From IMG/VR virus record IMGVR_UViG_3300030047_000065, positions 1-35,624 of that record: DNA of 35,624 nt. One strand, written 5' to 3'. Shown one piece after another: positions 14,850-33,072 of the stretch. The position numbers were made by a program, and so were the translations under genes. The notes beneath the pieces were generated by a model. The model ran no database searches, was not told the origin of the DNA, and worked only from the letters and a program-made list of their open reading frames with translations. The stretch is from a virus. Within the stretch, counting starts at the first letter, position 1, and the number at the start of each line of letters is the position of its first letter.

Positions 14850-14861
14850 ACAAATATATAG
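14850..14861 (-). promoter_or_regulatory. Late promoter motif, tail-fibre gene
   Basis: Minus strand CTATATA-TTTGT-ATG. The upstream ATGTG and the 12-base core are identical to those before the spike gene at 17491. The expected start of transcription is at or next to the ATG. Confidence 0.7.
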
Positions 14862-14872
14862 CACATGGATAG

Positions 14873-17491
14873 TTATGCAGTCTTTAGCACAGTCGCGCTA
14901 AATTCTATTGTGCAAGCTACACCACTAGGTGTGCTGACTTGAGCATCTGCAAATATATCACCCCAGCGCAAACCTGAACTCCATATTGCTGGTGTTGATG
15001 CTGTAGGTCCATATAGGCTTTGTACTAGACCCCTGGGGTTAGATACAGATGTGTGTTTTGCACCTAGCAAGGCAAAGTTAGCGTGATCACCAAAAATACC
15101 ACTAAGCCCATATGGTATATTACATTCTAGGTGTGTATATGGAATCGCATCACTCTGTATTGCATTAACTGCTAACAATGTGCTACCAATTAATATGACA
15201 TTAGAATTAATCCAATACTTCAGCGCATCCGAAATAGGATTAACATTTATACTGCAGGTGTAAGTATCATCAGCAGTTAATGGTACTGTTGTAGAACCAC
15301 TTACAGTTCTAGCCCAGCTTAACGATATTTGTAATACAGCTACTGATTTGCTTAGGGCTATTAGTCTAATACTATCTGTTCTTGCAGGAACATTAGTAGT
15401 CATATTAGTGCAATCAATAGTAAAATCGGTCCCACTAACCAAAATATTGGAACTCTTACCTGGTATGATATAGCCAGACGCGTCTGTAGCTAAGAAATCA
15501 GCACTGAGTATTTGTGGCAGGCATGGGCTATACAGAAAAGGGTTGGCGTAAGCCCCATTCTCAGATCTGTCATAAAGATTGAAACCAATAATGTTGGACG
15601 CAGTTGCGTTCATCTTAGAACTAATTGTTGCCGAGTGTCCTGTCAATAAAGCAGGTGATGTCCAGTACACACTATTTGCATCGGCATACTTATAGTACTT
15701 TAGAGTAAGACCTGTAGATTGTGAGTATGAGTATAGTGGATAATAGTTAGCTATACTCTGAGTTATGGATGGTGTGTAATTAAGGATAGGACCAGCACTA
15801 ACAGGACTATCCGATGTTGCTGTTATTGTGTAGTTTGTTGATAGATTTCTGAATCCAAAGGTGTCTCCAGCCTTAACTGCTGGGAACGACACGCCTGATG
15901 TATTTGTACTTAAATTTAATGTATTGAAAGTTCCAGGAACAACATTAAAATTAGCTGTATAGAATGTTATAGCGCCTGCTGCGACATAACTACCATCAGA
16001 ATCTGCGGTGGCTGTTATTGTAGTTACTAGGGTTGAACCATTGTATATCTGGAACATATCTCCTGTTTTTACAGCGCCAAAGCTATGGTCAACATAAAGC
16101 TTATTATCAGTATACTCAGCATTAATGGTTCTAGTTGACCCTAGGCCATTATAGTTATTCTGTATGGTTGTATATTCTATATCCAGTGTTCCTGTTACAT
16201 TCAAGGCAACATATAAATTTAAGGTGCCTTTACCGTGGATAGATAGATTGGTAAATGTTCCCAAACTAGTCATAACAGGATATGTTTTTCCATCAGGTAT
16301 TTCTAACTTACCGGACAGAGATGCCATTTTAACTTCAAAAACCCAATCTGTAGTCTGTGTACCAAACCAATCAGGCATCATATAATTATCACCAAAGTCA
16401 AAAGCATAATTGGCTACATTAGTGCGATCAAGATTGAATATCTGATATGGAACTTCAGGCAGCGCTATGTTAGGAATACTTATGGTCATTGTACCACTAA
16501 TAATGCCAGTACATACAATAATGGAATTATTTATAAACATTAGTGGATGCGTTGTTGATATATTCTGTGATGCAATATTGATGGTTCTATCAAGTATAAG
16601 TGTCTGATCGCTAGATGTTACAGATCCTAAAAACTTACTTAAGATGTCATCATCTGATATATCGGAAAAGTATGTGAACTTTATTTCGTCAGCAGCAGAC
16701 GCATCAATCTGAGCTGTTACGTTTTGTCCAAATATATTTGTACTATCAGGTAGAATCTTACTGCCAGCAGCAAAGGTAACTCTAATGCTATTACCAGAAA
16801 CAAAGCTGCCCCCACCACAGATTGTAACTCCTGTAGGTATGGTAAGATTTGACGTTATATATATCTTACCCATTAAACGTAGGGGCAAATTGTGCCTAGC
16901 AGACGAGCGCAATGCCACAACCATAGGCCCACTCTGGCTCACTAATGCATCATATACTACACCAAACCACCGAGGATTCATATAGCCATCGGTAATTCTA
17001 CGCCATACCATAGACCCAGACGTATTAGTTAGAATAACACCATCATCATCAATTTCAGTAGATCCAGGCACAAGTTCAAACAAGCCCTCACCGCCATCAC
17101 CTGCGGTTTCTCGTCCAGTACAGTAAGCTACAGTAACATTTCCTGCCAATGCTCTGATATCATTGTAAGTTCCAACAAATGTATATCCTACACTAGAACT
17201 AGGGTCTTCACCACCACCAGAACCTAAACCGTCAACAGGAGGAACTATCTGACCTCCGCGATAGTCAGATACACGTATACGATAAAGACCTAAACCGTAG
17301 ATTGCGCCAGGCCAGCCAGACGCGTCACAGATAACGGGATTAGTGCGGGGTATGGTGCATGCAAGATCACTGTAAACTGCCTTCCCGATATCATTTCCAG
17401 ATTCGGAGAAGAACAACTGAGCACCCGATGCTAGCTTACCATCATTTGTGCATTCACGTAGGATAACTGGAGTTAATAGAGTACCGGCCAT
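14873..17491 (-). CDS. Tailspike-like receptor-binding protein
   Basis: An 872-residue protein. The anchor module at residues 1-95 (FFSESGNDIGKAVYSDLACT, NPVICDASGWPGAIYGLGLY, DYRGG) is the typical phage fibre head-binding type and is related to the neighbouring fibre. The body from about residue 110 (FVGTYNDIRALAGNVTVAY) continues into long stretches with regular hydrophobic and Asn/Ser/Thr spacing, such as ITSNLTIPTGVTICGGGSF, characteristic of right-handed beta-helix spikes (pectate-lyase-like). These often bind or cleave surface polysaccharide. It holds the gp9 tailspike position of P22, next to the immI-like slot. The start ATG 17491 is chosen over the MLYIC extension because the promoter lies there. 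Enzyme activity not shown. Confidence 0.75.
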   Translation of the reverse strand: MAGTLLTPVILRECTNDGKLASGAQLFFSESGNDIGKAVYSDLACTIPRTNPVICDASGWPGAIYGLGLYRIRVSDYRGGQIVPPVDGLGSGGGEDPSSSVGYTFVGTYNDIRALAGNVTVAYCTGRETAGDGGEGLFELVPGSTEIDDDGVILTNTSGSMVWRRITDGYMNPRWFGVVYDALVSQSGPMVVALRSSARHNLPLRLMGKIYITSNLTIPTGVTICGGGSFVSGNSIRVTFAAGSKILPDSTNIFGQNVTAQIDASAADEIKFTYFSDISDDDILSKFLGSVTSSDQTLILDRTINIASQNISTTHPLMFINNSIIVCTGIISGTMTISIPNIALPEVPYQIFNLDRTNVANYAFDFGDNYMMPDWFGTQTTDWVFEVKMASLSGKLEIPDGKTYPVMTSLGTFTNLSIHGKGTLNLYVALNVTGTLDIEYTTIQNNYNGLGSTRTINAEYTDNKLYVDHSFGAVKTGDMFQIYNGSTLVTTITATADSDGSYVAAGAITFYTANFNVVPGTFNTLNLSTNTSGVSFPAVKAGDTFGFRNLSTNYTITATSDSPVSAGPILNYTPSITQSIANYYPLYSYSQSTGLTLKYYKYADANSVYWTSPALLTGHSATISSKMNATASNIIGFNLYDRSENGAYANPFLYSPCLPQILSADFLATDASGYIIPGKSSNILVSGTDFTIDCTNMTTNVPARTDSIRLIALSKSVAVLQISLSWARTVSGSTTVPLTADDTYTCSINVNPISDALKYWINSNVILIGSTLLAVNAIQSDAIPYTHLECNIPYGLSGIFGDHANFALLGAKHTSVSNPRGLVQSLYGPTASTPAIWSSGLRWGDIFADAQVSTPSGVACTIEFSATVLKTA

Positions 17492-17503
17492 ACAAATATA
17501 TAG
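17492..17503 (-). promoter_or_regulatory. Late promoter motif, tailspike gene
   Basis: Minus strand CTATATA-TTTGT-ATG preceded by ACATGTG. Same core as 14850-14861. It lies back to back with the plus-strand promoter at 17520. Confidence 0.7.
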
Positions 17504-17519
17504 CACATGTAAAAACCTG

Positions 17520-17548
17520 TTGACATGGGCGCATTTTTGTGTTAACTT
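17520..17548 (+). promoter_or_regulatory. sigma70-like promoter of the plus-strand membrane-protein gene
   Basis: TTGACA (17520-17525), a 17-bp spacer and TAACTT (17543-17548). The -35 box matches the consensus exactly. It faces away from the tailspike promoter. It would allow host RNA polymerase to express the gene at 17582 independently of the late operon. Confidence 0.7.
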
Positions 17549-17581
17549 CTATCCATAGCCAATAACACGAAAGGATTGAGG

Positions 17582-17749
17582 ATGTCTATCATAGCAGCAC
17601 TTATAGTTCTTATAGTAATTATTTGTGGTATATTTCCACTACTCGGCGTAACGGGTTATATTTGTTTTTTTATGTGTGGTGGTTTGATATACAATGTGTG
17701 CATAAAAGCGTATAAACTTTACCACAAGTTTGTTCCCGGCAAAAAATAA
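17582..17749 (+). CDS. Small membrane protein in the immI-like position; superinfection-exclusion candidate
   Basis: A 55-residue protein encoded opposite to all surrounding genes, too short for usual ORF cut-offs. MSIIAALIVLIVIICGIF, PLLGVTGYICFFMCGGLIY gives one long or two close transmembrane segments, with a basic C-terminal tail (KAYKLYHKFVPGKK) probably in the cytoplasm. AAAGGA lies about 8 bases before the ATG, and a consensus-like sigma70 promoter lies at 17520. It ends exactly one base before the convergent ejection-protein gene. In P22 the immI genes, including the membrane exclusion protein SieA, lie between gp16 and the gp9 tailspike, the same slot. A role in blocking superinfecting DNA entry is inferred from position, promoter and topology; no sequence similarity to SieA is claimed. 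Confidence 0.7.
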   Translation: MSIIAALIVLIVIICGIFPLLGVTGYICFFMCGGLIYNVCIKAYKLYHKFVPGKK

Positions 17750-19033
17750 TCACCTTGCTGCTTGGTTTTGCTTCCTAATTAGTGCAGGTGCTGATCCTAT
17801 CAAGTCACCAACACCAAAACCACCCAAACCAGAAATGAGTGATAGTGGCTTGCTACCATAATCAACACTTGATTTTATTACGGATGGAATTGCAAAATTA
17901 TTGGTTAAAGAACTTACTAGAGGACCCGCAATTCTTGGGTGTAGTTCGCCCATAATCTGGGCTGTCTTTTGAACTTTATTAGGTAGCCCACTAAGAAAGT
18001 TCATACCTTTAGGAGAATCCGGTAACTCTATACCCTTATTGATGCCCTTATAAAAATCAACGGCCTCTTTATCCGATGGCATGGCCGTTAAGCCAAAACC
18101 TTTATAAGATTCTGGATTAGAACGAACCATATACGACTTTATTGCATCTAGTTTTGTTCGTTGGGCATTAGAAAGAGCATCTGCTAGAGCTTCGTCTGTA
18201 TTGCTCAAAGTCCAATCATCTCTGGATGCTGTTGGTGCGCTATAAACGGGAACAGTGTTGTCTTTGACAGCATTAGATATTCCTGGATTGAATTCCTGGT
18301 TAATATCACTTAAAGCACTTCTGTTTTTTGCATATTGCGCTTGTGCTGCGTTTTCAGCTTCTTTGTATGCTGCTTTTCTGGCACCAGGACCACCAAAAAA
18401 AGATCCCAAATCACGCATTAAAGCAGATGTTAGGCCCGAACCTAGACCAGCACCAAGAGCTGACCCACCAACAGACAAGGCATTCTCAGATATCGGTTCT
18501 GTTTTCCACTCATTGGGCTCATCTGTCAGAGGATTGGCTTTGTTTATAGCTTCACCGGCACCAAAAGCTGCTGCGTTTATCAAGCCAGCAGTTAATGGGG
18601 ATGCTTCTGGAAATAGAGCTGTAGCGCCAATGGCTGCAACAGTGCCTGGATTTTTCTTTGCTAAGTCTACTACAGGACCGGCATAATCTCTATCTAAACG
18701 ATTGAGATAGTCCTTTGTTGGCTGTACAAAAGTTTCATTTATAGCTGTAGGTACACTTGTTTCTAGTGTTGTTTGACCATTATCGGTTCCTGACGTTGGA
18801 AGTGTATCATTAGACTGCAATCCAGAATTGCTGGATCTTACCTGCCCCTGATGCTGATTCCCATAAGTATTATAAAATGTTGACGAATCAGATACAGATG
18901 CCCCACCAGAAGCTAATGCTTTGCGAACCTTCTCGGAGAAGTTGGGATCCTGCATCTTTTGGGCAAAAGTAGATCTATCTACTGTAGCGCCTAAAGACTC
19001 TAATCCATTAGCTATATCATCTACTGTAGCCAT
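17750..19033 (-). CDS. DNA-ejection protein (P22 gp16-position)
   Basis: A 427-residue protein. The N-terminal ~60 residues (ANGLESLGATVDRSTFAQKM, then FSEKVRKALASG) are a helical module. Hydrophobic Gly/Ala-rich segments follow (VAAIGATALFPEASPL; GLINAAAFGAGEAI; LSVGGSALGAGLGSGLTSAL), as in phage proteins that insert into membranes during genome delivery. It is the third of three consecutive large proteins in the gp7-gp20-gp16 positions of P22. It starts in a TAATG overlap with the preceding gene. Assignment rests on gene order plus composition; no enzyme motif was recognised. Confidence 0.6.
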   Translation of the reverse strand: MATVDDIANGLESLGATVDRSTFAQKMQDPNFSEKVRKALASGGASVSDSSTFYNTYGNQHQGQVRSSNSGLQSNDTLPTSGTDNGQTTLETSVPTAINETFVQPTKDYLNRLDRDYAGPVVDLAKKNPGTVAAIGATALFPEASPLTAGLINAAAFGAGEAINKANPLTDEPNEWKTEPISENALSVGGSALGAGLGSGLTSALMRDLGSFFGGPGARKAAYKEAENAAQAQYAKNRSALSDINQEFNPGISNAVKDNTVPVYSAPTASRDDWTLSNTDEALADALSNAQRTKLDAIKSYMVRSNPESYKGFGLTAMPSDKEAVDFYKGINKGIELPDSPKGMNFLSGLPNKVQKTAQIMGELHPRIAGPLVSSLTNNFAIPSVIKSSVDYGSKPLSLISGLGGFGVGDLIGSAPALIRKQNQAAR

Positions 19034-20802
19034 TAGAATGATGATCCTGATAATGGTCCTGCAGTCTTTTTAGGTGTAAAAGCACCAGGACCTGTCTTCT
19101 TACCTGCCGCAGGTCCTCCGCCTACACCACCTTTATATTCAGGAAAAAACTCATCAAATTTGTCGCCTTTGCCATAGGCAGACCATTTGTTTCTGATAAA
19201 GTCACTAGTACCTTTTACAAGATATTTAGCGCCATCAATGCTATTTATACCTAATGCTGATTGGTATGCTTGCACCATGCCGGTAGCAGCAGCATTAGCA
19301 GCAGCACCACTAAGTCCGTTTTGTACTAATCCATTTGCTGCACTTTTTACAACGTCGCCTATGTTTGCACCATTCTGTACCTGCTGACCAACAGCGTCAA
19401 CCATACCCTCGCCAACAGGCAAGTTCATACCTTTAATTATTGACTTGCCAAGCATCAACTTAAACGCGCCCCACTCCGCAGAATTAGGCGATGGTGGATT
19501 TTGCATTAAGCTTATGATTTCTTTATCAGCGGCAGAAGCATCAGTTAAATTCTGTTTCTCTGCTGGCGATGGGAGGTAGCCACTAATAGCCGGATGTGAT
19601 ACCTGACTGAATTCCTTCTCTTGGTTGGCTTTAGCCATAGAATACTGATCTCTACCAAGAACTTCAGATAATGCTGTAGTATTACCATCAGCTAAAGCTT
19701 TAGCAGCAGCAGTTTTAGCGGCCATAACCTTAGCCCCATATGCTTGCACTTCTTGTGTATATCCAAGAACATCAAGCCTACCGTCTTTCATTTGGGGGGT
19801 AGGTACAGGAACTCCATGAGCTGCTTGTTCAAGTATCGCATCAACACCTTGTTGATTTTGTGACTTACCCATCTTAGCTAAAGTAGCATCAACACCCTGC
19901 TTCAGATTTAGATTTCCTGTTTTTACTACATTATCATAATTAAATATATTTGCATTATCGCCACTAGTTGTTGTTGTACTGCCGTTCGGTAGTGTTGGCG
20001 TTCCTGATCCAGAATCAGCAAGACGCTCTAAAATGCTACGCCTATCTGGTGTAGAAGTATATGACATACTATTGTCTTGAGGCGCAGGAGCAGTAAAGGT
20101 ACCACCACTATTGGCTTCTGGATTAGACGCATGTACAACAACCTGATTAGATGCTGTATTATCATCACTAGAAGTCATAGCTTTAGCTCCTGTTACAGGC
20201 TTAGGGCTAAATGCAGCAGCACCGGTATGTTGTTCTTGCACCTGATTTTGCTGAGATTGTGTAGGAGTAAAAGCTGCGGCACCATTAGCTCGTGCTGCAG
20301 CTCTAGCCCTAACTTCATCTGATGTGTCAGGAGAAGCATCTAAATTTAATGTGCTATTACCTTGAGGGGCTCCGGCACCTTGTTCATTATTATATTGAAT
20401 AGACTGACCAGCAGGTATCTGTTCACCATCAATAGAATTCATTCCACCAGCCCCAGGCTGTCCTGGTAGCTTACTTTGATCTCTAAGAGCATCAGGATTA
20501 AGGCTAAGTGTCTTCAACAGCATATTTGTTGTGCTCTGATTAGTAGCAGTATTATATGTGTCGTTCTGATTTGCTAGCCATGCCTTTACCGCATCCGGGC
20601 CAACACCATGAGACGATGCTGCATGTATAAAGCCAAACTGGTCCAGAGAACCATCATCATTTGTATGGGCAGACTGCAAATTTCTCAGTAATTGCTTATT
20701 TGCCCAGTCAATCTCATCGCGTGAACCCTGCTGAGCTGTGTTTAATGCTTGTGCGGATTGAAGAGGGTTCATACCGCCGGTAACATCTGCGAAAGCAGTC
20801 AT
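19033..20802 (-). CDS. DNA-ejection protein (P22 gp20-position)
   Basis: A 589-residue protein rich in Ala, Gly, Asn, Gln and Ser with low-complexity stretches. A short motif recurs: GAAAFTPTQ, GAAAFSPKP and near the C-terminus GPGAFTPKK, a possible linear binding motif for another virion protein. The N-terminus is helical (GSRDEIDWANKQLLRNLQSA). A central region with QGVDATLAKMGKSQNQQGVD and QQGVDAILEQAAHGV contains an internal repeat of QGVDA-[TI]-L. A lytic transglycosylase motif was not found. Position between gp7- and gp16-like genes supports a role in DNA ejection. Tightly packed with both neighbours. Confidence 0.6.
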   Translation of the reverse strand: MTAFADVTGGMNPLQSAQALNTAQQGSRDEIDWANKQLLRNLQSAHTNDDGSLDQFGFIHAASSHGVGPDAVKAWLANQNDTYNTATNQSTTNMLLKTLSLNPDALRDQSKLPGQPGAGGMNSIDGEQIPAGQSIQYNNEQGAGAPQGNSTLNLDASPDTSDEVRARAAARANGAAAFTPTQSQQNQVQEQHTGAAAFSPKPVTGAKAMTSSDDNTASNQVVVHASNPEANSGGTFTAPAPQDNSMSYTSTPDRRSILERLADSGSGTPTLPNGSTTTTSGDNANIFNYDNVVKTGNLNLKQGVDATLAKMGKSQNQQGVDAILEQAAHGVPVPTPQMKDGRLDVLGYTQEVQAYGAKVMAAKTAAAKALADGNTTALSEVLGRDQYSMAKANQEKEFSQVSHPAISGYLPSPAEKQNLTDASAADKEIISLMQNPPSPNSAEWGAFKLMLGKSIIKGMNLPVGEGMVDAVGQQVQNGANIGDVVKSAANGLVQNGLSGAAANAAATGMVQAYQSALGINSIDGAKYLVKGTSDFIRNKWSAYGKGDKFDEFFPEYKGGVGGGPAAGKKTGPGAFTPKKTAGPLSGSSF

Positions 20803-20805
20803 CTA

Positions 20806-21591
20806 TTAACCCCCCATCCCATACAGGCTATCTAATGCAGAACCTGCTGAGGATTGACTATTTGCAATGTTGCCAAATGTGTTGTTGATACCCGAGTTGA
20901 AGTTCTTGGCCTTGGAAGCATTAGTATTCCACGCCGTCTCAGCTTGTCCCTGATAATCTGTGTTGATACCAGAGTTGTAACCTTGCTGAAGTTGCTGGTT
21001 AGAATTAGTTGCAGACAAGCCCATATTAGCCAGATTACCGTAGTTTTGGATCTGCTGCTGCTGATAATTGTTGTTGTTAGAGTAATTCTGTTGTTGCTGA
21101 TTAAACGTCTGATTATTGCCTTGAAGCATCTGATTATAAGCATTGTTATAATTAGTCATGGCAAGATTGGCTGTGTTTGCGGATAGTGCCTTAGCTAAAC
21201 CACCACCAGTTCCACCGGAAGCGATAGCATTAGCTTCCATAGCTTTATTGCTTTGGTCTGTAGTATAAGCAGCCGACGGGTTAAGATAGTTATTAACAGC
21301 ATTGCTTGCAGAATTATCAGTAACAGTTGGTGTTGTCGCTTGCTGACGATTAACTATACCAGACGTGAACCCATTTAGCCCAGTTTCACCACCAGAAGTG
21401 TACGGCGAGTAAGCTGCGTTAGCTCCTTGCTGCCCCTGCTGAAGAGTGTTTATACCCTTGTTAGAAAGATTTTGATAATCTTTGTTTGCTGTATTTAGGG
21501 AGTCATTAGCTTGCTGCATGCCGATATAGTTACCGAGTGCAGAAGTTAGTGCTCCTGATGATTCTCCGAGTGATCCAAATAATCCAGCCAT
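20806..21591 (-). CDS. DNA-ejection protein (P22 gp7-like), Asn/Gln-rich
   Basis: A 261-residue protein. The N-terminus (MAGLFGSLGESSGALTSALG, then ANKDYQNLSNKGINTLQQG) and the ASGGTGGGLAKAL segment are typical of small phage ejection proteins of the gp7 type. The middle is strongly Asn/Gln-rich (NNQTFNQQQQNYSNNNN), a prion-like composition. It starts right after a late promoter motif (CTATATA at 21597-21603, five bases, ATG), so the ejection genes can be transcribed as their own unit. The preceding gene ends inside the promoter. Confidence 0.65.
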   Translation of the reverse strand: MAGLFGSLGESSGALTSALGNYIGMQQANDSLNTANKDYQNLSNKGINTLQQGQQGANAAYSPYTSGGETGLNGFTSGIVNRQQATTPTVTDNSASNAVNNYLNPSAAYTTDQSNKAMEANAIASGGTGGGLAKALSANTANLAMTNYNNAYNQMLQGNNQTFNQQQQNYSNNNNYQQQQIQNYGNLANMGLSATNSNQQLQQGYNSGINTDYQGQAETAWNTNASKAKNFNSGINNTFGNIANSQSSAGSALDSLYGMGG

Positions 21592-21603
21592 ATTATTATA
21601 TAG
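21592..21603 (-). promoter_or_regulatory. Late promoter motif, ejection-protein operon
   Basis: Minus strand CTATATA-ATAAT-ATG. It begins within the stop codon region of the 158-aa gene (TAACTATATA). It would drive the three ejection-protein genes. Confidence 0.65.
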
Positions 21604-22080
21604 TTAATTCTTGATTGTGTATGTCAGGTATACAACACGACGACCTAACGGTATAGTTACTTCTTTTGTTCCAGCAAGATACTCTGTGTTTTCATATATA
21701 AAAGGCAGAGCAGACTCAAAGGGCAGATCTAGACTAAATGCTGCTGGTGATGCAGATCCCAAATCATGCGATATGCAGCATAACGACCCATTTAACACAT
21801 GAGTAAGAGTCTTGCTCCAACTACTTCCATTGTATAGATAACTGTCTGTGCCAATTGTACAAGTATTACCAGCAACAGAACTCGGTGGATATGCTGTTAC
21901 AATGCCCAAATACTTTGATGTACCTGTAACAGGAGATTTGTTCTGTGGTGTACTAGATCTTGTAGCAATATCACCAAGATTCTTGAGATACTTTGTCCAA
22001 GGAAGAGACATCATACCACTGTCTAGTAATGGTGTGTTTACTGGGATGGGACTAGCAATTACTTTTTGATCAGTAGACAT
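21604..22080 (-). CDS. Small virion protein (P22 gp26/gp14 position)
   Basis: A 158-residue protein. The N-terminal half holds a motif common at the start of phage fibre or needle proteins (LLDSGMMSLPWTKYLKNLGD). The C-terminal half is beta-rich with paired aromatics (SYLYNGSSWSKTL; EYLAGTKEVTIPLGRRVVYL). It lies between gp10-like and gp7-like genes, where P22 encodes its tail needle gp26 and gp14. It is shorter than gp26 and shows no long coiled coil, so a needle identity is not supported; a tail-tip plug or small head-completion role is possible. Confidence 0.5.
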   Translation of the reverse strand: MSTDQKVIASPIPVNTPLLDSGMMSLPWTKYLKNLGDIATRSSTPQNKSPVTGTSKYLGIVTAYPPSSVAGNTCTIGTDSYLYNGSSWSKTLTHVLNGSLCCISHDLGSASPAAFSLDLPFESALPFIYENTEYLAGTKEVTIPLGRRVVYLTYTIKN

Positions 22081-22081
22081 G

Positions 22082-23638: not shown

Positions 23639-23641
23639 CGA

Positions 23642-24376
23642 TTATACCCCGCCAAAGAAGTTAAATGGACTGCCACCCGAGAAGTCATTACGTGTTCTGT
23701 GCATTCCGTTCATCAAACCTCGTGCCTTGATATGCTTGCTGCAGCCACTAAGTTGTATGATTAATCCTTGAGGAACATCCTGACCATACAGACCAAGCAA
23801 TCTAGTAGCTAACTCAAGATATAGCATTTGGAAGTATTCGGGAGGGTCAATATAGGGATCTGTTACATTCTCATAATCTGTTAAGTATCTACGACCTTGT
23901 ACGCGTACAGCCCATCCCTGAGATAGTCCTGGATAAAAATAAACATTTTGCAGAGGATATTCAGAATCCAGATAAGCGCTATCTGGAATAGCAAACACAT
24001 TCTGTACTATTTTAGATCTGTACTCTTCATATGTTTTTAACGTCAATAAAAAGTTATTATTACCGTTTGCCGAGCTATTCATCAGTATGATCTGATCTAT
24101 AGAACTTGGTCTTATTGGTATATCACCAGCAATAGGGTTTAACGGGTCTGTGTTGTCCGTACCTAATGTGATAAATTGTTTGTTTGTGGTTGCTGAATAT
24201 GTCTGATCAAACTTAAGATTAGCTCTATTGTTGATAGAATACTCTGCTCGTATAGCATTAAGCAGCATCAGTGCTTCTCGTGCTTGGTTGGGTGGTATGC
24301 TATCATTAAAATATGCAACACCGGCTGCCCTAAGTGCCGAGAATAACAGGTCGTATACAGTGAGAGTACTTAGCAT
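23642..24376 (-). CDS. P22 gp4-like tail accessory / head completion protein
   Basis: A 244-residue protein. The N-terminus TVYDLLFSALRAAGVAYFND, then ALMLLNAIRAEYS, is the typical opening of the P22 gp4/T7-adaptor-like family that forms the ring under the portal. The middle (RSKIVQNVFAIPDSAYLDSE, YPGLSQGWAVRVQGRRYLTD) fits too. The start is the ATG at 24376; the upstream in-frame extension (MGLFHFYLYID) crosses the promoter motif. The gene has its own late promoter and a terminator separates it from the coat gene, so it begins the head-completion and tail unit. Confidence 0.75.
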   Translation of the reverse strand: MLSTLTVYDLLFSALRAAGVAYFNDSIPPNQAREALMLLNAIRAEYSINNRANLKFDQTYSATTNKQFITLGTDNTDPLNPIAGDIPIRPSSIDQIILMNSSANGNNNFLLTLKTYEEYRSKIVQNVFAIPDSAYLDSEYPLQNVYFYPGLSQGWAVRVQGRRYLTDYENVTDPYIDPPEYFQMLYLELATRLLGLYGQDVPQGLIIQLSGCSKHIKARGLMNGMHRTRNDFSGGSPFNFFGGV

Positions 24377-24388
24377 ATCAATATATAG
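24377..24388 (-). promoter_or_regulatory. Late promoter motif, gp4-like gene
   Basis: Minus strand CTATATA-TTGAT-ATG. It lies just downstream of the terminator at 24397-24423. Confidence 0.65.
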
Positions 24389-24396
24389 GTAGAAAT

Positions 24397-24423
24397 GAAA
24401 AAGCCCCACATTTCTATGAGGCT
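24397..24423 (-). terminator. Intrinsic terminator after the coat gene
   Basis: On the minus strand AGCCTCAT, loop, ATGTGGGGCT, then TTTTT. About 7-8 paired bases including G-U, followed by a T-run. It separates the abundant coat message from the downstream head-completion unit. Confidence 0.7.
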
Positions 24424-24452
24424 CAGTTTTATGTTACAATAAGATTTTCTGC

Positions 24453-25721
24453 TTAGTTGTGACGAATACGGATAATCCACTCAGGACGTAAAGTCTTAAA
24501 TCCTAAGAAACTATCAAGACGCGAGACAAACCCTACCGTGCCCGAAGCTCCTACCATGTCATACCCACGAAGGAAACGAACGCGTAGCTGATTCTCATCA
24601 ATCTCTTCGGCCATGTCAAACGAACTCTTCTTCGGCATCTCAAACTTGGGAGATACAGCAGCAATAGCGGCGCGATGGAATACCAAGGATTCCTGGCCAC
24701 TTGCAGCAGTAGCATCAATGAGAGTAAGAGTTGTGCTTGCAATAGGTGCAGAGATGTTCTGATCTGGACCAGAAACAACGGGAGCAGGAGACACCGTTAC
24801 AGTAGTTGCACCAATAGCTGCCGCAGTAACCACCGTGAACTGCTTGTAGTTTGCAGTTACGGCCTTAGTAAGAGGATTAACATGATAAACAGTAGAAACG
24901 AACACGTCTCCGGCATTAACCGCTCCTGTAAGAGCAGTAACTGTCAAAGTACCGGTTTCAGCATAAGCAGACAAGCTGTTACTAGCTGCAGAAGTTACAG
25001 CCAATGTACCCTGAGCGCCGTTTACGTGTGTAGCCATAGACTGAGAAACGTTGAACTCAATGCCGGAGAAGTCTCCAATGTATCCCTTTGTGTAGATACG
25101 AGAAATTGATTCCTGGGCATTAAACAGCGTTAACTGAGCGTTAGCAAGCTGACGGTTAGCACGCGGTGACAAAACACCAACAATATCACCATCGTCCGGG
25201 CAGCCAGAGTCAAGAAGGACCTGGAATGCATTAAGAATAGTATCGGAAGTCAATGCTGTAGCATACGAACCAACAACCCAACCAGCACTATTTGGGGTAG
25301 CAGTAGTAACGCCACCATCAACAGATGAACCAGCATAGCAGTTAACACAGGCACTAGCAATATCTGTATCAAATGTAGCCGCAAGCACTGCCACGGCCTG
25401 CTTTACATAGCGCGAAGAGAAGTCTTCAATCTTCAGGGCAAGATCAGCATCAAAGAAAGTAAACGGAACAGTGTACGAGTTAGAAACAGTCAACTGCGAA
25501 TACTTTTCAGTTACTGCCTGAGCACTGAATGCTAGGTTGTTGCGATTTACTGAAAACAGGACAGGAATACGAACACGGTACTGAGCACCAATCTTATTCT
25601 CTGAAGTAGCAAACTTATCGTTATACTGCCAGTCAACCTTGCGAGCAACGATCAAGCTGTTCTCAAACTGCATCAGTAATTCCTTACTGATGATGGTAGA
25701 GGTAAGTACTGTATTAGCCAT
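24453..25721 (-). CDS. Major capsid protein, P22 coat-like
   Basis: A 422-residue protein, close to the length of the P22 coat family (about 430). The N-terminus (STIISKELLMQFENSLIVAR, then VDWQYNDKF) and the following IPVLFSVNRNNLAFSAQAV are family hallmarks. An inserted beta domain (about 240-330, with VTALTGAVNAGDVFVSTVYH) fits the I-domain-like insertion of this group. The gene is not read from an adjacent late promoter: it has a ~125-nt leader from the promoter at 25852 that contains an 8-bp hairpin. No strong Shine-Dalgarno sequence precedes ATG 25721, which is odd for the most abundant protein and suggests the leader matters for translation or stability. Confidence 0.85.
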   Translation of the reverse strand: MANTVLTSTIISKELLMQFENSLIVARKVDWQYNDKFATSENKIGAQYRVRIPVLFSVNRNNLAFSAQAVTEKYSQLTVSNSYTVPFTFFDADLALKIEDFSSRYVKQAVAVLAATFDTDIASACVNCYAGSSVDGGVTTATPNSAGWVVGSYATALTSDTILNAFQVLLDSGCPDDGDIVGVLSPRANRQLANAQLTLFNAQESISRIYTKGYIGDFSGIEFNVSQSMATHVNGAQGTLAVTSAASNSLSAYAETGTLTVTALTGAVNAGDVFVSTVYHVNPLTKAVTANYKQFTVVTAAAIGATTVTVSPAPVVSGPDQNISAPIASTTLTLIDATAASGQESLVFHRAAIAAVSPKFEMPKKSSFDMAEEIDENQLRVRFLRGYDMVGASGTVGFVSRLDSFLGFKTLRPEWIIRIRHN

Positions 25722-25851
25722 TATTGTATCTCACTTTTCTGCCTATTAGGCGGTTATGTTTGCCCTGCACATTTTTTACTTCTCATCTATGCAGGGCTTG
25801 CATTGTGAGAATTACAACTAAGGTATTTTAACGAGTTCTTAGCCCCTCTAA
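25722..25851 (-). promoter_or_regulatory. Structured 5' leader of the coat gene
   Basis: The stem GCCCTGCA/TGCAGGGC (25762-25769 with 25790-25797) is a perfect 8 bp with a 20-base AT-rich loop. A second dyad GCCTA-T-TAGGC (25741-25751) lies nearer the ATG. This is the only late transcription unit with a long leader; all others place the promoter at the start codon. A stabilising or translation-enhancing role for the coat mRNA is inferred. Confidence 0.5.
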
Positions 25852-25863
25852 TAATTTATATAG
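25852..25863 (-). promoter_or_regulatory. Late promoter motif, coat gene (long leader)
   Basis: Minus strand CTATATA-AATTA, sitting just after the scaffold stop. There is no ATG at the usual distance; the next start is the coat gene about 125 bases downstream. The exception to the leaderless pattern. Confidence 0.65.
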
Positions 25864-25864
25864 T

Positions 25865-26746
25865 CTACCTACCAGTACGCCATTTTCTATATTCTGCTGG
25901 ACTCATATCTTCAACTCTCTTTGTTGGTGCCCTAGTACCCTTTACTGTTGGTGTTACAGGCTTTGTACTCTGCGTGAATGTTGGTTTACTATCAGATTCT
26001 TCTGATTCGGATGTGTCGTTAGATACGGGGGTACGTGAGAACTTTGCACTCCACTTTGCCATTGCCCTAATTGCGCCAATCTCATCATTAGATGATAGCA
26101 TTTGCATAATGTCAGCACCATCTGTACACAAGTGCTTAATAAGATCTGGACCATTCTCGTCAGTAACAATCGCATACCGTACCTGAGGGGATAGTTTTGT
26201 AGCATACTGTTTAGTAAACCAATCAGTAGCCTCCTTAACTTCTGGATCAGCCTTGATAGACTCTTCTAGGCGCACTTCAAATTTAGATGCTAGGTCTTTT
26301 TCTACCTGAGCAGCGGCACGCTGATATTCTTGCTGTCTCTGTCTTGCTTCAAAAGCCTTAAATGTTTCCTGCTGGAGATACGCCTCACGAGCCTTGAGCC
26401 AAGCATAATTATCAACCTCACCATCAGCGGTCTTGAATTGTTCAGGTTTAATGTCATCAATATTTGTGATCTCTGGCATTTTAGGGCCATTGACCTTAGC
26501 TTCTAATTCAGAATACTTCTGCTGCATCTCATTATAGCGTGCTTCAGTTTCTCTGAACTTGTTGTTAACTTCCTGAAACCTATGATACGGAATTGGATCA
26601 GGTTCCTTTTTATTCCAGGGACGCTCTGGTTTGGTTTCTTCTGGTGTTGGTGTAGCTTCAGAGTTATTGGTAGTTTCAACTACTTCAACTGGATTAGATT
26701 CTACTTCAACTTCTACTGGTTCTGTAATGGGTGTTTCTGTGTCCAT
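25865..26746 (-). CDS. Scaffolding protein
   Basis: A 293-residue, highly charged, helical protein between portal and coat genes, where P22-type phages encode the scaffold. The N-terminal ~60 residues are acidic, Thr/Glu/Val/Pro-rich. The middle is coiled-coil-like (FRETEARYNEMQQKYSELEA; RQRQQEYQRAAAQVEKDLA). The C-terminal 40 residues are basic and end TPTVKGTRAPTKRVEDMS, then AEYRKWRTGR, matching the basic coat-binding tail expected of a scaffold. The start is ATG 26746, since the MLLYM extension covers the promoter and operator. A terminator upstream separates it from the portal gene. Confidence 0.75.
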   Translation of the reverse strand: MDTETPITEPVEVEVESNPVEVVETTNNSEATPTPEETKPERPWNKKEPDPIPYHRFQEVNNKFRETEARYNEMQQKYSELEAKVNGPKMPEITNIDDIKPEQFKTADGEVDNYAWLKAREAYLQQETFKAFEARQRQQEYQRAAAQVEKDLASKFEVRLEESIKADPEVKEATDWFTKQYATKLSPQVRYAIVTDENGPDLIKHLCTDGADIMQMLSSNDEIGAIRAMAKWSAKFSRTPVSNDTSESEESDSKPTFTQSTKPVTPTVKGTRAPTKRVEDMSPAEYRKWRTGR

Positions 26747-26758
26747 ACTTTTATATAG
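26747..26758 (-). promoter_or_regulatory. Late promoter motif, scaffold gene
   Basis: Minus strand CTATATA-AAAGT-ATG. Upstream lies the inverted repeat GTACATGCCTGTAC (26761-26774). Confidence 0.7.
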
Positions 26759-26760
26759 TA

Positions 26761-26774
26761 GTACAGGCATGTAC
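26761..26774. promoter_or_regulatory. GTACA-N4-TGTAC inverted repeat (candidate operator), scaffold promoter
   Basis: GTACATGCCTGTAC on the minus strand. Three bases separate it from CTATATA. Same half-sites as at 29104 and 31038. Confidence 0.55.
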
Positions 26775-26788
26775 AACAACACAATAAT

Positions 26789-26815
26789 AAAAAAGAGAGC
26801 TTGTTAGGCTCTCTA
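26789..26815 (-). terminator. Intrinsic terminator after the portal gene
   Basis: Minus strand AGAGAGC, 7-base loop, GCTCTCT, then a run of T. A 7-bp perfect stem. It lies between the portal stop and the scaffold promoter. Confidence 0.75.
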
Positions 26816-26820
26816 AATTA

Positions 26821-28752
26821 TTACTGTTGGTTTGGTTTCACGACTAGCATATTTAATTCAGTTTTATGAATGTCGTGTCTATGATCCATTTCTTGCTGGA
26901 ATATCTTAGTCTGATTCTCAATATGACGATTAACTATGTCGTGCTCCATCTTTGTAGCTTCCAAAGATTTATCTTCCTTAGAATCTGCTTGACGTAGAGA
27001 TAAGTCATATTGATACTTTGCTTGCATAGCTTCCATCTGCATCTGATGCTTAGCCTGTTCTGCCTGCAAGTGAGTGGCCTGCTCCTGCTTAAGAGCCTGG
27101 TTCTCTGCTTGCATTTGTTGCATTTTCTGTTGCATCTGCTGCATCTGATTCTGTGTGGCAGCTAGCTGTTGTGGTGCTTGATCAGCATTGCTTGGATTAG
27201 ATGCAGCAAGTACCTGTGATGGTATTGCAGCTCTTAAGCGCATAGCCAGCTCATCAGCACCTGTGAAGTTCAGGTTCTTTACAATCAGATCACCAGCAAG
27301 TTGCATCATGGCGGGGTATTTTGTGACCAAGTCAGATAGACGATCGGCTGTCTCGGATCTCTGTGACTCGTAGGTAGGTCCTGTACTTAGACGGATGCTA
27401 TACTTACCTGATGTAAGATCGTGTTTAACCCATTGACCATTTTCAACGTATGCTTGGTTGATCTTAGCCGCAGTAATCTGACCATCTTCACCCATGATCT
27501 GAGCTATCTTAGGTTCGTCATAATAATGTGGTATAGCATCTACTAAGATCTTGCCCAACATCAAGATCCCATCTTTGAGCGAATCATAATAGTTATAGAT
27601 ACCAATGTTTCCCTCTGAAATTTGCAGATTTATAGCCTTACCAGACTGTGTTTGAGGGATGTCCTGTAATGGGTCTCTAATACCAATAGCCGATCTTAGA
27701 TCTGTATCAGCATCCTGCGCTGCTTGGATAAGTGCTGTTGGTGGTACCTGTGGTTGTATTGGTACAGGAGCACCGGTGCCAGAGTCTTCGTATGGCAGAT
27801 AATTATACTGTTGTATGTTGTTGGAATCCCAAACCTTTTGGTAAGGACCCATCTGTTTATCAGATATCAGCCACTGCTGCTTTGCAGATCTAGCTAAATA
27901 ATCAGCTATTTCAGACTTGGTATAGTTGAGTAGTTTTTGGATATCCTTAACGTCACGACAAATGCCCTTATACTCTTTTATATCATCAACAACAAACTCT
28001 TCACCAACAATATAAACAATAGGAATATATCGCGGCTTATAGTTATCTAGCTTCTCCAGAATCTCATTGGCTGTCATGATGACCATTTTAACTTGACCAT
28101 CTTCTTTATACCAATACTCTGCTATCTGTACCTTATCCTTTTGAAACCAATTGCTCTCAGGATCTAATGGTTCTGTGCTAGCTTCTGGGTACTTCTTTTC
28201 AAAATCCTTTTTCAGCATCCATGATATAACGAACGCATATTTCATATCTTCAAAGCAAAAACGTTCGGCATCTGGATCAATATATACATTAGTAGGGTCG
28301 CGAATACCACGAATATAGAAATCAGGTTCGCCATCCATATCTGGCTCAATAACTACACGAAAAGCGCCAAGTCCGCCCATCATCTCTTGCTTCAAGGAGT
28401 TGGCAAATACGGTCTTAGCATTACTATTATACATGATATACTTGATAAGACCATCATATACTTTTGCAGTATTCTGATCAGCACCATCCGTATATGGACT
28501 ACACGCCAATGACGGCATGTTCATTCTAGCATTGTTAACAATATATTTAATATTGGCTAATAGCTTATTGTAGTTTAGAGAAGATCTGTCTTCCATGTTT
28601 CGTATCTTGAGAATCTTATCATCCCACTGGTTCCCCGCGCAGAATCTAACATCCTCACGATATTGGTCATGTATACGCTCCCACTGATCGTGAGCATACT
28701 CAAATCTCTCTAATGCTTCCTTAATCAGGTCTTCTTCAGTTGTATCAGCCAT
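26821..28752 (-). CDS. Portal protein, P22 gp1-like
   Basis: A 643-residue protein. The N-terminal half (RFCAGNQWDDKILKIRNMED, RSSLNYNKLLANIKYIVNNA, GGLGAFRVVIEP, PTNVYIDPDAER) is the P22-type portal core. The C-terminal ~110 residues are a long glutamine/methionine-rich coiled coil (QNQMQQMQQKMQQMQAENQA), corresponding to the helical barrel region that projects into the capsid in this family. Twelve copies would form the DNA channel at one vertex. It is read from its own late promoter at 28753 and ends in a terminator at 26789-26815. Confidence 0.85.
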   Translation of the reverse strand: MADTTEEDLIKEALERFEYAHDQWERIHDQYREDVRFCAGNQWDDKILKIRNMEDRSSLNYNKLLANIKYIVNNARMNMPSLACSPYTDGADQNTAKVYDGLIKYIMYNSNAKTVFANSLKQEMMGGLGAFRVVIEPDMDGEPDFYIRGIRDPTNVYIDPDAERFCFEDMKYAFVISWMLKKDFEKKYPEASTEPLDPESNWFQKDKVQIAEYWYKEDGQVKMVIMTANEILEKLDNYKPRYIPIVYIVGEEFVVDDIKEYKGICRDVKDIQKLLNYTKSEIADYLARSAKQQWLISDKQMGPYQKVWDSNNIQQYNYLPYEDSGTGAPVPIQPQVPPTALIQAAQDADTDLRSAIGIRDPLQDIPQTQSGKAINLQISEGNIGIYNYYDSLKDGILMLGKILVDAIPHYYDEPKIAQIMGEDGQITAAKINQAYVENGQWVKHDLTSGKYSIRLSTGPTYESQRSETADRLSDLVTKYPAMMQLAGDLIVKNLNFTGADELAMRLRAAIPSQVLAASNPSNADQAPQQLAATQNQMQQMQQKMQQMQAENQALKQEQATHLQAEQAKHQMQMEAMQAKYQYDLSLRQADSKEDKSLEATKMEHDIVNRHIENQTKIFQQEMDHRHDIHKTELNMLVVKPNQQ

Positions 28753-28764
28753 AAATTTATATAG
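28753..28764 (-). promoter_or_regulatory. Late promoter motif, portal gene
   Basis: Minus strand CTATATA-AATTT-ATG. It begins three bases after the stop of the 108-aa gene (TGAA-CTATATA). No GTACA-type dyad is present here. Confidence 0.7.
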
Positions 28765-28765
28765 T

Positions 28766-29092
28766 TCAAACGGTTTCTGTTGACAGTTTTGCGAGCGTCA
28801 GATCTTGTTCTACACTTTCCATAGTGTCCTTAGCCATACTCTCTAACTTATCTGTAGCGTCGCGAACGGCCAAATTTGCCTTGATCATCTTATTGATTAG
28901 CGAGAGAATATTGATCTTTGGTATGTAGATCTTACCTTTGTAGCGTATGCCTTGAGGCATGATTTCATGCTTCATTAAACCTCCTAAAATTTCATTATCA
29001 AATCCATATCGAGGAAGATCCTGGATAAGTATCCATTCACCGCGAGAAAATCTAAAGTTGTCGGGTACGGGAGAGTCTGTATTTGTTGTCAT
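28766..29092 (-). CDS. Hypothetical protein between terminase and portal, 108 aa
   Basis: A 108-residue protein. The part GEWILIQDLPRYGFDNEILG, then YKGKIYIPKINIL, has the layout of a small winged-helix or excisionase-like fold. The C-terminal third is helical. It is read from its own late promoter, the only one in the window where the -10-like box, an 18-bp perfect palindrome and the two flanking genes leave just 26 bp between stop and start. A DNA-binding role in packaging or late regulation is possible, but no clear family is recognised. Confidence 0.6.
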   Translation of the reverse strand: MTTNTDSPVPDNFRFSRGEWILIQDLPRYGFDNEILGGLMKHEIMPQGIRYKGKIYIPKINILSLINKMIKANLAVRDATDKLESMAKDTMESVEQDLTLAKLSTETV

Positions 29093-29104
29093 GTATTTAT
29101 ATAG
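29093..29104 (-). promoter_or_regulatory. Late promoter motif with exact TATAAATA, 108-aa gene
   Basis: Minus strand CTATATAAATAC-ATG; contains TATAAATA, the T4 late consensus. The spacing from CTATATA to ATG is 5 bases. The palindrome at 29103-29120 overlaps its upstream edge. Confidence 0.75.
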
Positions 29105-29120
29105 TACAGATATCTGTACT
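29103..29120. promoter_or_regulatory. 18-bp perfect palindrome at a late promoter (candidate operator)
   Basis: AGTACAGATATCTGTACT, perfect two-fold symmetry. It contains GTACA-N6-TGTAC and overlaps both the CTATATA box and the terminase stop codon. Related dyads with a 4-base spacer lie at 31038 and 26761. Confidence 0.65.
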
Positions 29121-30483
29121 ACCTACCAGTAAAAGAGAAAGGTGACGATCCTGTATGTGCTACAGGCTCTTCTATTGTTACAGGAGCTTTATAGTATGAT
29201 ACATATCTAAATGCGTCAGCAGCATGTGAGTGGCTATCGTGTACTGGCTTGTCTGTCCATATACCTAAGTCTTCTTTCCACTCACGTCTATAGTTTACTA
29301 GATCTTCATATAACTCTTCACATTTTGATTTGTTGATCCACACGTGGCGGAACATAGTACGCGTTGACTGTATACCTTCAGCCAGAGTGTCACGAGGAAG
29401 TGGAAATACATCATTAGTTGTTTTGCGTGCTTGATCAATTATTTTAGTATTTGTTGTCCATTCACGCTTTGAACCATCATGTGGGAAGTAATGCTTTTGA
29501 TAACGATAACCACACGAATCCATACGTCTCATTACTTCTGGCATGTAATAGTCATTTAGACCCTTGTTATTATCTTTGATCATGTCAATAATATGTATCT
29601 CTTTACCAATAAACTGCACAAATAGTATTACTGTCATATCGGATGAACCAATATCCCAAAATGTAGATACAGGTATAGAAGGATCAAAAGGTACATTAGA
29701 ATACCTATGCTCATCCTTCATTGTTTTTAACTCATGCTCAAACACTTGTCCCTCTACCACGTCATATGCTCCCCAGTTACCGTATAGTAATGCGTTACAG
29801 TCCTCTTCACTCATCATCATAAGTTGCGCCTGGTACTCTTTGCTTATATGTGGGTTGTCTGATAGCTTGGCCTGTATATATCTAAAATGTTTTAATACTA
29901 CTGTACCATCATCAAGAGGATACTCTTTTACAAAATACGTTGAATCTCCAACATCATTAATGTTAAAATAGTTTCTCAACCATTTATATCTTGACGGATT
30001 TGAACTACACCTAAAGTAACATCTAAGCCCGTGGCTATCTCTCAAGCGTGACATAGCATACTGCATAATAGCAGGACTATCATACTGACCTATTTCATCA
30101 CAATGTATTATTGATAACTCTTGACCTTGGAAGAACGTTTCAGCTTGTTCAAAGCGTTCAAAGTGCTGGAAGTATATTTGGGCACCAGATGAAAATGTCC
30201 ATGTCAGAGTATTTCCACCAACAAACTTAGCACCAGGATCAATTTGTTTATATATCTCTTTACTCTTAAGTATTAAATCACGTAAGTCTTTATAGTGCTT
30301 GCGGTAAATTAAACCACGGTAATATGACTTCTGGTATCTCGGGCAGTCACTATCATTTAGCCCTAATAGATTAACAAGAGCCACAAGACTCTTGCCTGAA
30401 CCAGCACCACCAGCAATCATACAAACATCGTCATCAGATGCTAAGAATTGCTCCTGTTTATCGTTTGGTACAAACTCAAACAT
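29119..30483 (-). CDS. Terminase large subunit (packaging ATPase/nuclease)
   Basis: A 454-residue protein. The Walker A is GGAGSGKS (residues 25-32, K31) and the Walker B LSIIHCDE (D129, E130). The C-terminal RNase H-like nuclease shows STFWDIG (D277), FPHDGSKR (D336) and VHDSHSHAADAFRY (D416/D423) as likely metal ligands. Together with the small subunit it recognises, cuts and pumps concatemeric DNA into the prohead. Its start overlaps the small terminase gene by 8 bases. It ends TGR-stop in the boundary sequence shared with the scaffold gene. Confidence 0.9.
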   Translation of the reverse strand: MFEFVPNDKQEQFLASDDDVCMIAGGAGSGKSLVALVNLLGLNDSDCPRYQKSYYRGLIYRKHYKDLRDLILKSKEIYKQIDPGAKFVGGNTLTWTFSSGAQIYFQHFERFEQAETFFQGQELSIIHCDEIGQYDSPAIMQYAMSRLRDSHGLRCYFRCSSNPSRYKWLRNYFNINDVGDSTYFVKEYPLDDGTVVLKHFRYIQAKLSDNPHISKEYQAQLMMMSEEDCNALLYGNWGAYDVVEGQVFEHELKTMKDEHRYSNVPFDPSIPVSTFWDIGSSDMTVILFVQFIGKEIHIIDMIKDNNKGLNDYYMPEVMRRMDSCGYRYQKHYFPHDGSKREWTTNTKIIDQARKTTNDVFPLPRDTLAEGIQSTRTMFRHVWINKSKCEELYEDLVNYRREWKEDLGIWTDKPVHDSHSHAADAFRYVSYYKAPVTIEEPVAHTGSSPFSFTGR

Positions 30484-30850
30484 CCTTACTCTTTACTATA
30501 GTTACTGTCTCTTTTGGCGGCATAACAATAGTAACTTGGTTAGATGTGTCTGTTGTTGTATCTGGTTGGAAATCAGGACACTCATCATTTAGACTTACCA
30601 TCAACTTAATTGCTGCCGCATCTCCAGAACAGGCTTTACGATATAATCCATCCCAAATTGCCTGACGCTGGGCTTCAGGAATGCGATTAAGCCAGTTGCG
30701 AAAGTTAGTCTTTAGTGATAGCCCACCCATGCCGTTCTTACCGGCCCGACCCCAAGGGTTGCGAACGTCGCCAGGTTTTGCTGGCTTAAGATTCTCGCTA
30801 CCTGGGTGGGATCTCTTGGATCCATCTGATGGATCTTTACTCTTGGGCAT
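30476..30850 (-). CDS. Terminase small subunit, DUF5681-like
   Basis: A 124-residue protein. The N-terminus is basic and Gly/Pro-rich (PGDVRNPWGRAGKNGMGG), followed by a helical part (FRNWLNRIPEAQRQAIWDGL, YRKACSGDAAAIKLMVSL). This is the DUF5681-type pattern of small subunits found directly upstream of large terminases. It probably binds the packaging start site and feeds DNA to the large subunit. ATG 30850 is preceded by AAAGAGG; an upstream in-frame extension is rejected since it lies inside the previous gene. Overlaps both neighbours. Confidence 0.7.
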   Translation of the reverse strand: MPKSKDPSDGSKRSHPGSENLKPAKPGDVRNPWGRAGKNGMGGLSLKTNFRNWLNRIPEAQRQAIWDGLYRKACSGDAAAIKLMVSLNDECPDFQPDTTTDTSNQVTIVMPPKETVTIVKSKDV

Positions 30851-31025
30851 TACGGGCCTCTTTACGATCTGTTCGCGCTTGCTGTTGTTTAGTTTTGTAT
30901 ATTTGTATTTTATCTCGTATAAGTTCGGCCTCACTATCTAGATGCAGTTGCTCTGCTATAGATAGATCTTGACTCAGCCTATTGAGGTAGCTTATCTTGC
31001 TACGTGGGATGCCTAGTAAATTCAT
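30837..31025 (-). CDS. Small helical protein opening the late block, 62 aa
   Basis: A 62-residue, charged, helical protein (LSQDLSIAEQLHLDSEAELI, then KTKQQQARTDRKEARNAQE). It may be a coiled coil. It is the first gene after the gp55-like sigma cluster and is read from a TATAAATA-type late promoter. It overlaps the small terminase gene by 14 bases, so it may be a packaging accessory. No known family was recognised. Confidence 0.65.
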   Translation of the reverse strand: MNLLGIPRSKISYLNRLSQDLSIAEQLHLDSEAELIRDKIQIYKTKQQQARTDRKEARNAQE

Positions 31026-31038
31026 ACTATTTATATAG
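31026..31038 (-). promoter_or_regulatory. Late promoter motif with exact TATAAATA, terminase operon
   Basis: Minus strand CTATATAAATAGT-ATG: TATAAATA is the T4 late consensus. The spacing from CTATATA to ATG is 6 bases here, the only such case. GTACA-N4-TGTAC abuts it. Confidence 0.75.
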
Positions 31039-31051
31039 TACATCCCTGTAC
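31038..31051. promoter_or_regulatory. GTACA-N4-TGTAC inverted repeat (candidate operator), terminase promoter
   Basis: GTACAGGGATGTAC on the minus strand. Its last C is the first C of CTATATA. Same relation to the promoter as at 29103. Confidence 0.55.
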
Positions 31052-32505: not shown

Positions 32506-33072
32506 TCACGTTTTTCTAACTATGGCCTTATTTTGAGCCAAATTTTCAATTATTTTTGAAATACTTGACTTAAGTATCTGGTCAATAGCCTGTCTACTGA
32601 CTCCTAGTAGACCTGCTACATCTTTTATGCTGTAACCACACCTATATAGTAGTTCCATCGCTGTGCGTGCTCTAGGCTTTAAGTCCACATGATCTATCAC
32701 GTACCATAAATCAGATACATCCAGCACATCGTCTATTATGTCAGGTAATATCTCTACGTAGGGATCAATGTTACATAACTCTGCCTGCCGTCTCTGAGCA
32801 CCACGATAGCTTAGACTATGACTTACACCACCACGTACCTGCCATGCAAACCAAGTCCCAAACGATGATTCTGACGTACTATTATACGTTTGTAAAGCTG
32901 TTACGAAGGCGTCATTAACAATATCATTTAACAACTCAGTACCGGCATCGTTCCATACCTTGATGGTCTTGCGAGCACAGTAGTATCCATACTTTTTGTA
33001 CTTGTTATACAGTTCTGTGGCTGCTTTTTCGTCGCCAGATCTAGCCGCTAGTATCAAATCTTGATCGTCCAT
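32506..33072 (-). CDS. Sigma-70/ECF-like RNA polymerase sigma factor
   Basis: A 188-residue protein. Residues 1-90 fit sigma region 2 (DDQDLILAARSGDEKAATEL, LYNKYKKYGYYCA, then SSFGTWFAWQVRGGVSHSL). Residues 130-180 fit region 4 with a helix-turn-helix (GYSIKDVAGLLGVSRQAIDQ). This two-domain form is typical of ECF-type sigma factors. AGGGAG precedes ATG 33072. A strong terminator lies just upstream (33088-33118), so expression probably depends on readthrough or on a promoter I could not define. Likely a middle or late transcription switch. Confidence 0.75.
   Translation of the reverse strand: MDDQDLILAARSGDEKAATELYNKYKKYGYYCARKTIKVWNDAGTELLNDIVNDAFVTALQTYNSTSESSFGTWFAWQVRGGVSHSLSYRGAQRRQAELCNIDPYVEILPDIIDDVLDVSDLWYVIDHVDLKPRARTAMELLYRCGYSIKDVAGLLGVSRQAIDQILKSSISKIIENLAQNKAIVRKT

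Follow-up and report, generated by a model that had tools for sequence, protein, structure and literature searches.

Nearly the whole late regulon of the phage genome analyzed here (35,624 nucleotides, IMG/VR record IMGVR_UViG_3300030047_000065; this whole stretch is referred to as the window) carries an invariant CTATATA box, which, judged from the sequence, probably represents a single-element late promoter giving rise to leaderless mRNAs; its probable reader is the RNA polymerase core of the host together with the phage sigma factor encoded at positions 32506–33072 (sigma-1). Leaderless late promoters had been proposed in the initial annotation, and this reading remained the best one, being supported by the comparison with shuffled sequences, the lack of Shine-Dalgarno and -35 sequences, and a related phage in which the arrangement recurs at 4/4 starts; from these findings, we infer that the mRNAs lack a leader.

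The window represents the genome of a P22-type podophage, with P22 portal and coat families being detected above the Pfam cut-offs. Furthermore, genes for a gp10-like head closure protein, a scaffold protein, a terminase, and a VanY-type endolysin were identified, and the late genes are located on the minus strand throughout. The virus is a small tailed phage featuring sigma-factor genes of its own. Rfam families were not found in the window, and a gp10 search of genome contigs detected neither a prophage nor a host. A search with the coat protein led to a relative, IMGVR_UViG_3300048598_000020, whose coat and gp10 proteins are 87% and 93% identical, respectively. The contig of this relative (G112, comprising the loci L228 and L233) matches both window ends within one stretch: window positions 34970–35374 pair with L233 1206–1610, and positions 2872–3683 pair with L233 4262–5073. 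Because the contig runs across both ends, and thus crosses the junction of positions 1 and 35624, little of the genome appears to be missing, and the window, despite being classed as linear, probably represents a nearly complete, circularly permuted genome. An HNH endonuclease gene (428–994, plus strand) is located before the gene at 1169–2872 in the window, whereas the copy of the relative (L233 5134–5712) follows a primase-like gene; this different location indicates a mobile gene. A T4 SegE-type GIY-YIG endonuclease (Pfam SegE_GIY-YIG) is encoded at 34931–35437 on the minus strand, and a collagen-like protein rich in GxQG/PQG repeats (10681–11718, minus strand) is encoded among the tail genes.

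Nine exact CTATATA boxes were found on the minus strand between positions 14855 and 31038, each at the location previously assigned to it (the higher coordinate denotes the 5' base of the box):

31032–31038, minus strand: CTATATA box, six bases (AATAGT) before the ATG at 31025 of a 62-aa ORF; contains TATAAATA
29098–29104, minus strand: CTATATA box, five bases before the ATG at 29092 of a 108-aa ORF; contains TATAAATA
28758–28764, minus strand: CTATATA box, five bases before the ATG at 28752 of the P22-type portal gene
26752–26758, minus strand: CTATATA box, five bases before the ATG at 26746 of the scaffold gene; a terminator lies just upstream
25857–25863, minus strand: CTATATA box belonging to the coat gene and the only one without an adjacent ATG
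24382–24388, minus strand: CTATATA box, five bases before the ATG at 24376 of the P22 gp4-like tail-adaptor gene; kept in the relative at L228 1157
21597–21603, minus strand: CTATATA box, five bases before the ATG at 21591 of a 261-aa gene, a probable ejection protein; kept at L228 3933
17497–17503, minus strand: CTATATA box, five bases before the ATG at 17491 of an 872-aa fibre/spike gene; kept at L228 8372
14855–14861, minus strand: CTATATA box, five bases before the ATG at 14849 of a 1042-aa fibre/spike gene; kept at L228 10754

A recount from the sequence gave a distance of five bases in seven cases and of six bases in one (31038), and exact TATAAATA is indeed present in two copies (31038 and 29104), both in agreement with the initial annotation. 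The 62-aa ORF heads the packaging unit leading into the terminase gene. An identical promoter and start stretch, CATGTGCTATATATTTGTATG, is common to both fibre genes (14849–14866 and 17491–17508, minus strand), suggesting cassette duplication or conversion. The statement that no -35 consensus is shared also held: no column upstream of the boxes reaches a -35-like conservation, T at -4 being the sole position with 7/9, and sigma70-type -35 matches near the boxes were not above chance. One conserved box without a conserved -35 element is the layout of a single-element promoter, and a -10-like element at a fixed distance of five to seven bases from the start codon is that of a leaderless unit. 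The base preceding the ATG is a pyrimidine in 8/8 box genes, as expected for a transcription start of the Y-1/A+1 type.

CTATATA alone occurs at chance frequency in the window (13 copies vs. 11.8 expected). CTATATA-N5-ATG, on the other hand, was counted seven times, compared to a mean of 0.27 and a maximum of three in 2000 dinucleotide shuffles, so that the signal resides in the placement of the box. The earlier argument that chance AT-richness could hardly account for the pattern is hence valid for the fixed-spacing placement, but not for the box by itself, which is not enriched. In an unbiased scan of all 7-mers at spacings of 0–12, CTATATA-N5 was the top pair. When the best combination of 7-mer and spacing (0–12) was taken from each of 400 shuffles, which allows for a motif chosen after the fact, a count of seven was never reached, and a count of six was obtained in one shuffle. 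All eight N5/N6 matches start real ORFs on the late strand, ranging between 62 and 1042 aa. One-mismatch boxes at N5 or N6 were not found before any ORF start, indicating that the element is invariant and not the top of an AT-rich continuum.

The expected lack of a Shine-Dalgarno sequence was evident from the duplex energies with the 16S tail: the eight box genes averaged +0.4 kcal/mol, 30 other genes -5.6 kcal/mol, and random windows -1.9 kcal/mol (p = 3e-5). Since the other genes of the phage use Shine-Dalgarno sites, this lack is confined to the box genes. The gene at 31025 is borderline, with a weak predicted site (-4.0 kcal/mol), and an in-frame ATG at 31043 could be the start of this first ORF instead. 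For the portal, tail-adaptor, scaffold, and one of the fibre genes, co-linearity with protein profiles supports the assigned ATGs as true starts: the portal protein follows its profile from residue 3 (position 5) onwards, residue 8 of the scaffold protein corresponds to profile position 10, and residue 18 of the fibre protein starting at 17491 corresponds to position 18 in phrog_26190; the tail-adaptor ATG is supported likewise.

At the level of sequence, conservation of the cassette in the relative is the decisive evidence. The scan of related phages, as suggested in the initial annotation, revealed CTATATA-N5-ATG, in all cases as CTATATATTGGTATG, at 4/4 orthologous starts covered, namely those of the genes at 24376, 21591, 17491, and 14849, and the 11-kb piece L228 contains no CTATATA besides these four sites. 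Ungapped identity in the 30 bases upstream was 12, 23, 14, and 5 of 30, respectively. Box, spacing, and ATG were thus kept while the flank diverged, which argues for selection independent of the flank. The box genes of the relative also lack a Shine-Dalgarno sequence (+1.3 to +2.2). This close-relative evidence comprises one contig, which ends before any sigma-1 orthologue would come into view; the contig IMGVR_UViG_3300031521_000299, considered as a second relative, was 100% identical and therefore discarded as independent evidence. The portal relatives (about 30% identity; 40 records) feature 0–2 matches per record and do not carry the box; the start signal ranking first in them is usually the Shine-Dalgarno sequence. 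Close relatives by terminase or either sigma protein were not found in IMG/VR, nor were relatives of either sigma found among GenBank phages. Among the matches listed in a ACTATATAAATNNATG scan, 70 viral records, which were selected for holding one box, were checked in full and contained at most three CTATATA-N5-ATG each.

The coat box lies 136 nt before the coat ATG at 25721. The terminators reported before two of the units proved to be real, with stems at 26814–26794 and 24424–24401:

25722–25852, minus strand: predicted coat mRNA leader of about 130 nt, strongly folded, with a weak Shine-Dalgarno sequence in a stem
26794–26814, minus strand: intrinsic terminator between the portal gene and the box at 26758
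24401–24424, minus strand: intrinsic terminator between the coat gene and the box at 24388

The fold of the coat leader (25852–25716) amounts to -38.8 kcal/mol (z = -4.3 vs. shuffles). It includes a 10-bp hairpin, and the weak Shine-Dalgarno sequence GUGAGA pairs with an upstream UCUCAC (25716–25852, minus strand); translational control of the coat gene by this fold is possible. The stem of the terminator after the coat gene is conserved in the relative, though its bases have changed. With two boxes following terminators and the coat box being remote from its ATG, the box appears to act in transcription and not in translation.

As expected for promoters of this class, the phage encodes sigma-family proteins:

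32506–33072, minus strand: sigma-1, phage sigma factor, with Pfam Sigma70_ECF, r4, and r4_2 above cut-off; phrog_1740
33840–34640, minus strand: sigma-2, a second, divergent sigma-like protein, with an orthologue at L233 302–1129 (38% identity)
34647–34675, minus strand: sigma70-type promoter TTGACA-17-TATATT, six bases before the sigma-2 ATG

Sigma-1 is the leading candidate for the reader of the boxes, as deduced from its homology. It matches phrog_1740 at 1.6e-13, and gp36 of phiEco32 matches the same profile at 1.9e-45; the profile also matches in cellular genomes, so membership in this family is broad. Sigma-1 possesses region 4, which gp36 lacks, and could thus in principle read a -35 element; this point and the existence of sigma-2 speak against the assignment. 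Pairwise BLAST detected no similarity between sigma-1 and gp36. A strong intrinsic terminator (33093–33118, minus strand; 11 pairs, GGGGTACTAC...GTAGTACCCC-TTTTT) is located directly before the sigma-1 gene and its Shine-Dalgarno site; read-through or antitermination may be required for the gene to be expressed. Sigma-2 is possibly a leaderless early gene transcribed from a host-type promoter; TTGACA-17-TATATT is not conserved in the relative. With AlphaFold run on single sequences, the two sigmas were modelled at very low confidence only (pLDDT 38 and 43). Substitutions at Gln437 of sigma70 favour C at -12; an arginine at this position in region 2.4 of sigma-2 was considered as a clue to the box but not relied on, the neighbouring aromatic residues not being conserved in the relative. 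An RNA polymerase gene was not seen in the window or the relative by a family search without a working control.

Regarding known systems, the Thermus phage phiYS40 is, by analogy, a better precedent than T4 for the leaderless part. Its middle and late promoters reportedly possess a single -10-like element (Sevostyanova 2007) and are reported to use host sigma-A. The middle and late transcripts of this phage are mostly leaderless (PMC3594737). In its genome, TA..[AC]T peaks six bases before ATGs. Leaderless mRNAs and the single -10-like element would thus be shared features; however, phiYS40 is large, not related, and infects Thermus, in which many genes are leaderless anyway, whereas an invariant box, phage sigma factors, and Shine-Dalgarno sites at other genes are found here. 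In Deinococcus-Thermus, leaderless mRNA results from a -10 motif located 6–7 bp upstream of the ORF (PMC12340547), again representing a -10 element adjoining the ORF, but this concerns cellular genes with a degenerate TANNNT motif read by the primary sigma.

The gp36-dependent middle and late promoters of phiEco32 feature the element tAATGTAtA without a -35, are transcribed by the host core with the phage sigma, and start 6–8 bp downstream (PMC8948821). Being a podophage with a single conserved element and a sigma factor in the same PHROG, phiEco32 resembles the phage studied; its box, however, has another sequence and is sited 33–39 bases before the ATG. The late TATA box of T4 starts at -13, is 8 bp long, and lacks a -35, with AT-rich DNA just below (PMC2988020), which places +1 at the sixth base downstream. 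Applied here, the spacing of T4 or phiEco32 would put +1 on or beside the A of the ATG. The comparison to T4 drawn in the initial annotation was appropriate for the kind of element (one AT-rich TATA box, no -35), but not for the leaderless part, since T4 late boxes are found 14–28 bases before the ATG. Moreover, the consensus here is CTATATA, the T4 octamer TATAAATA occurring in 2/9 copies only, and homologues of gp55, gp33, and gp45 were not among the matches of general Pfam/PHROG scans. With boxes 14–39 bases before the ATG, both T4 and phiEco32 have leaders. What is new here is an invariant box fused to the start codon, covering nearly the whole late regulon, probably read by a phage sigma, and kept by selection, and this combination occurs in a phage that relies on Shine-Dalgarno sites for its remaining genes.

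Leaderless promoters could also be read by the primary sigma of the host in a -10-only manner, aided perhaps by an activator from the phage or by remodelling of the host sigma, while the phage sigmas serve other genes. TATATA resembles the -10 hexamer, phiYS40 provides the precedent for leaderless middle and late mRNAs (with reported use of the host sigma), and the sigma-2 gene has a sigma70-type promoter at near-leaderless spacing. This explanation is nonetheless unlikely, as the leading C and the last-position A are invariant, unlike in the sigma70 -10 (TATAAT), -35 matches are at chance level, and the phage encodes sigma factors, one of them in the phiEco32 gp36 family. It is quite improbable that the box is not a promoter but a translation signal on longer mRNAs, for instance an AU-rich, S1-type, or start-codon context: while it occupies and replaces the Shine-Dalgarno position, the distance of the coat box from its ATG and the two boxes directly after terminators, where a new start is needed, contradict this view, as do the normal Shine-Dalgarno sites of other phage genes and the invariant seven-base core, whose leading C sets it apart from AU-rich enhancers.

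Promoters of a phage single-subunit RNA polymerase would explain a fixed and invariant box near the start, and CTATA resembles the T7 CACTATAGGG core; but both the conserved -17 to -5 block and the G run at +1 are absent, and such a gene was not seen in the window or the relative, whose contig spans the window ends (family search without a working control), making this reading very improbable. Finally, chance AT-richness in intergenic gaps accords with the expected frequency of CTATATA by itself. It fails on the fixed spacing, whose count was not matched in shuffles, on the conservation of box, spacing, and ATG in the relative, and on the low numbers of matches in the 40 portal relatives (0–2 per record) and the 70 box-selected viral records (at most three); shuffles and conservation refute this explanation, and its probability is negligible.

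According to the preferred reading, i.e., leaderless late promoters served by a phage sigma, host sigma70 would transcribe the early genes, including sigma-2 from TTGACA-17-TATATT, and the phage sigma, made earlier in infection, would then direct the host RNA polymerase core to the boxes. CTATATA in the -10 position would be the single recognition element, a -35 element not being used. Transcription would start on the A of the ATG or no more than one base away from it, and the presumed late mRNAs would consequently be leaderless. Their 5'-terminal AUG would be translated without a Shine-Dalgarno site by 70S initiation, a mechanism that has been reviewed (PMC9031893). The coat gene, with its structured leader of about 130 nt, would be the exception. 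A tentative and rather doubtful extension is that the late regulon except coat is built on a 15-bp CTATATA-N5-ATG cassette, in which one element sets both starts in a host otherwise using Shine-Dalgarno sites, and that a conversion of the ribosomes to leaderless (70S) initiation, bypassing host mRNAs, may form part of the late switch.

If the preferred reading is true, almost the entire structural regulon of a Shine-Dalgarno-using phage would have moved to leaderless mRNAs made with a phage sigma, by means of a compact promoter-plus-start cassette. This would provide a sequence signature by which phages of this kind could be recognized and a clean natural test of leaderless translation at the high rates that late phage genes need. 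The coat gene, being the most heavily expressed gene and the sole exception with a long, folded leader, would make the trade-off testable within one genome.
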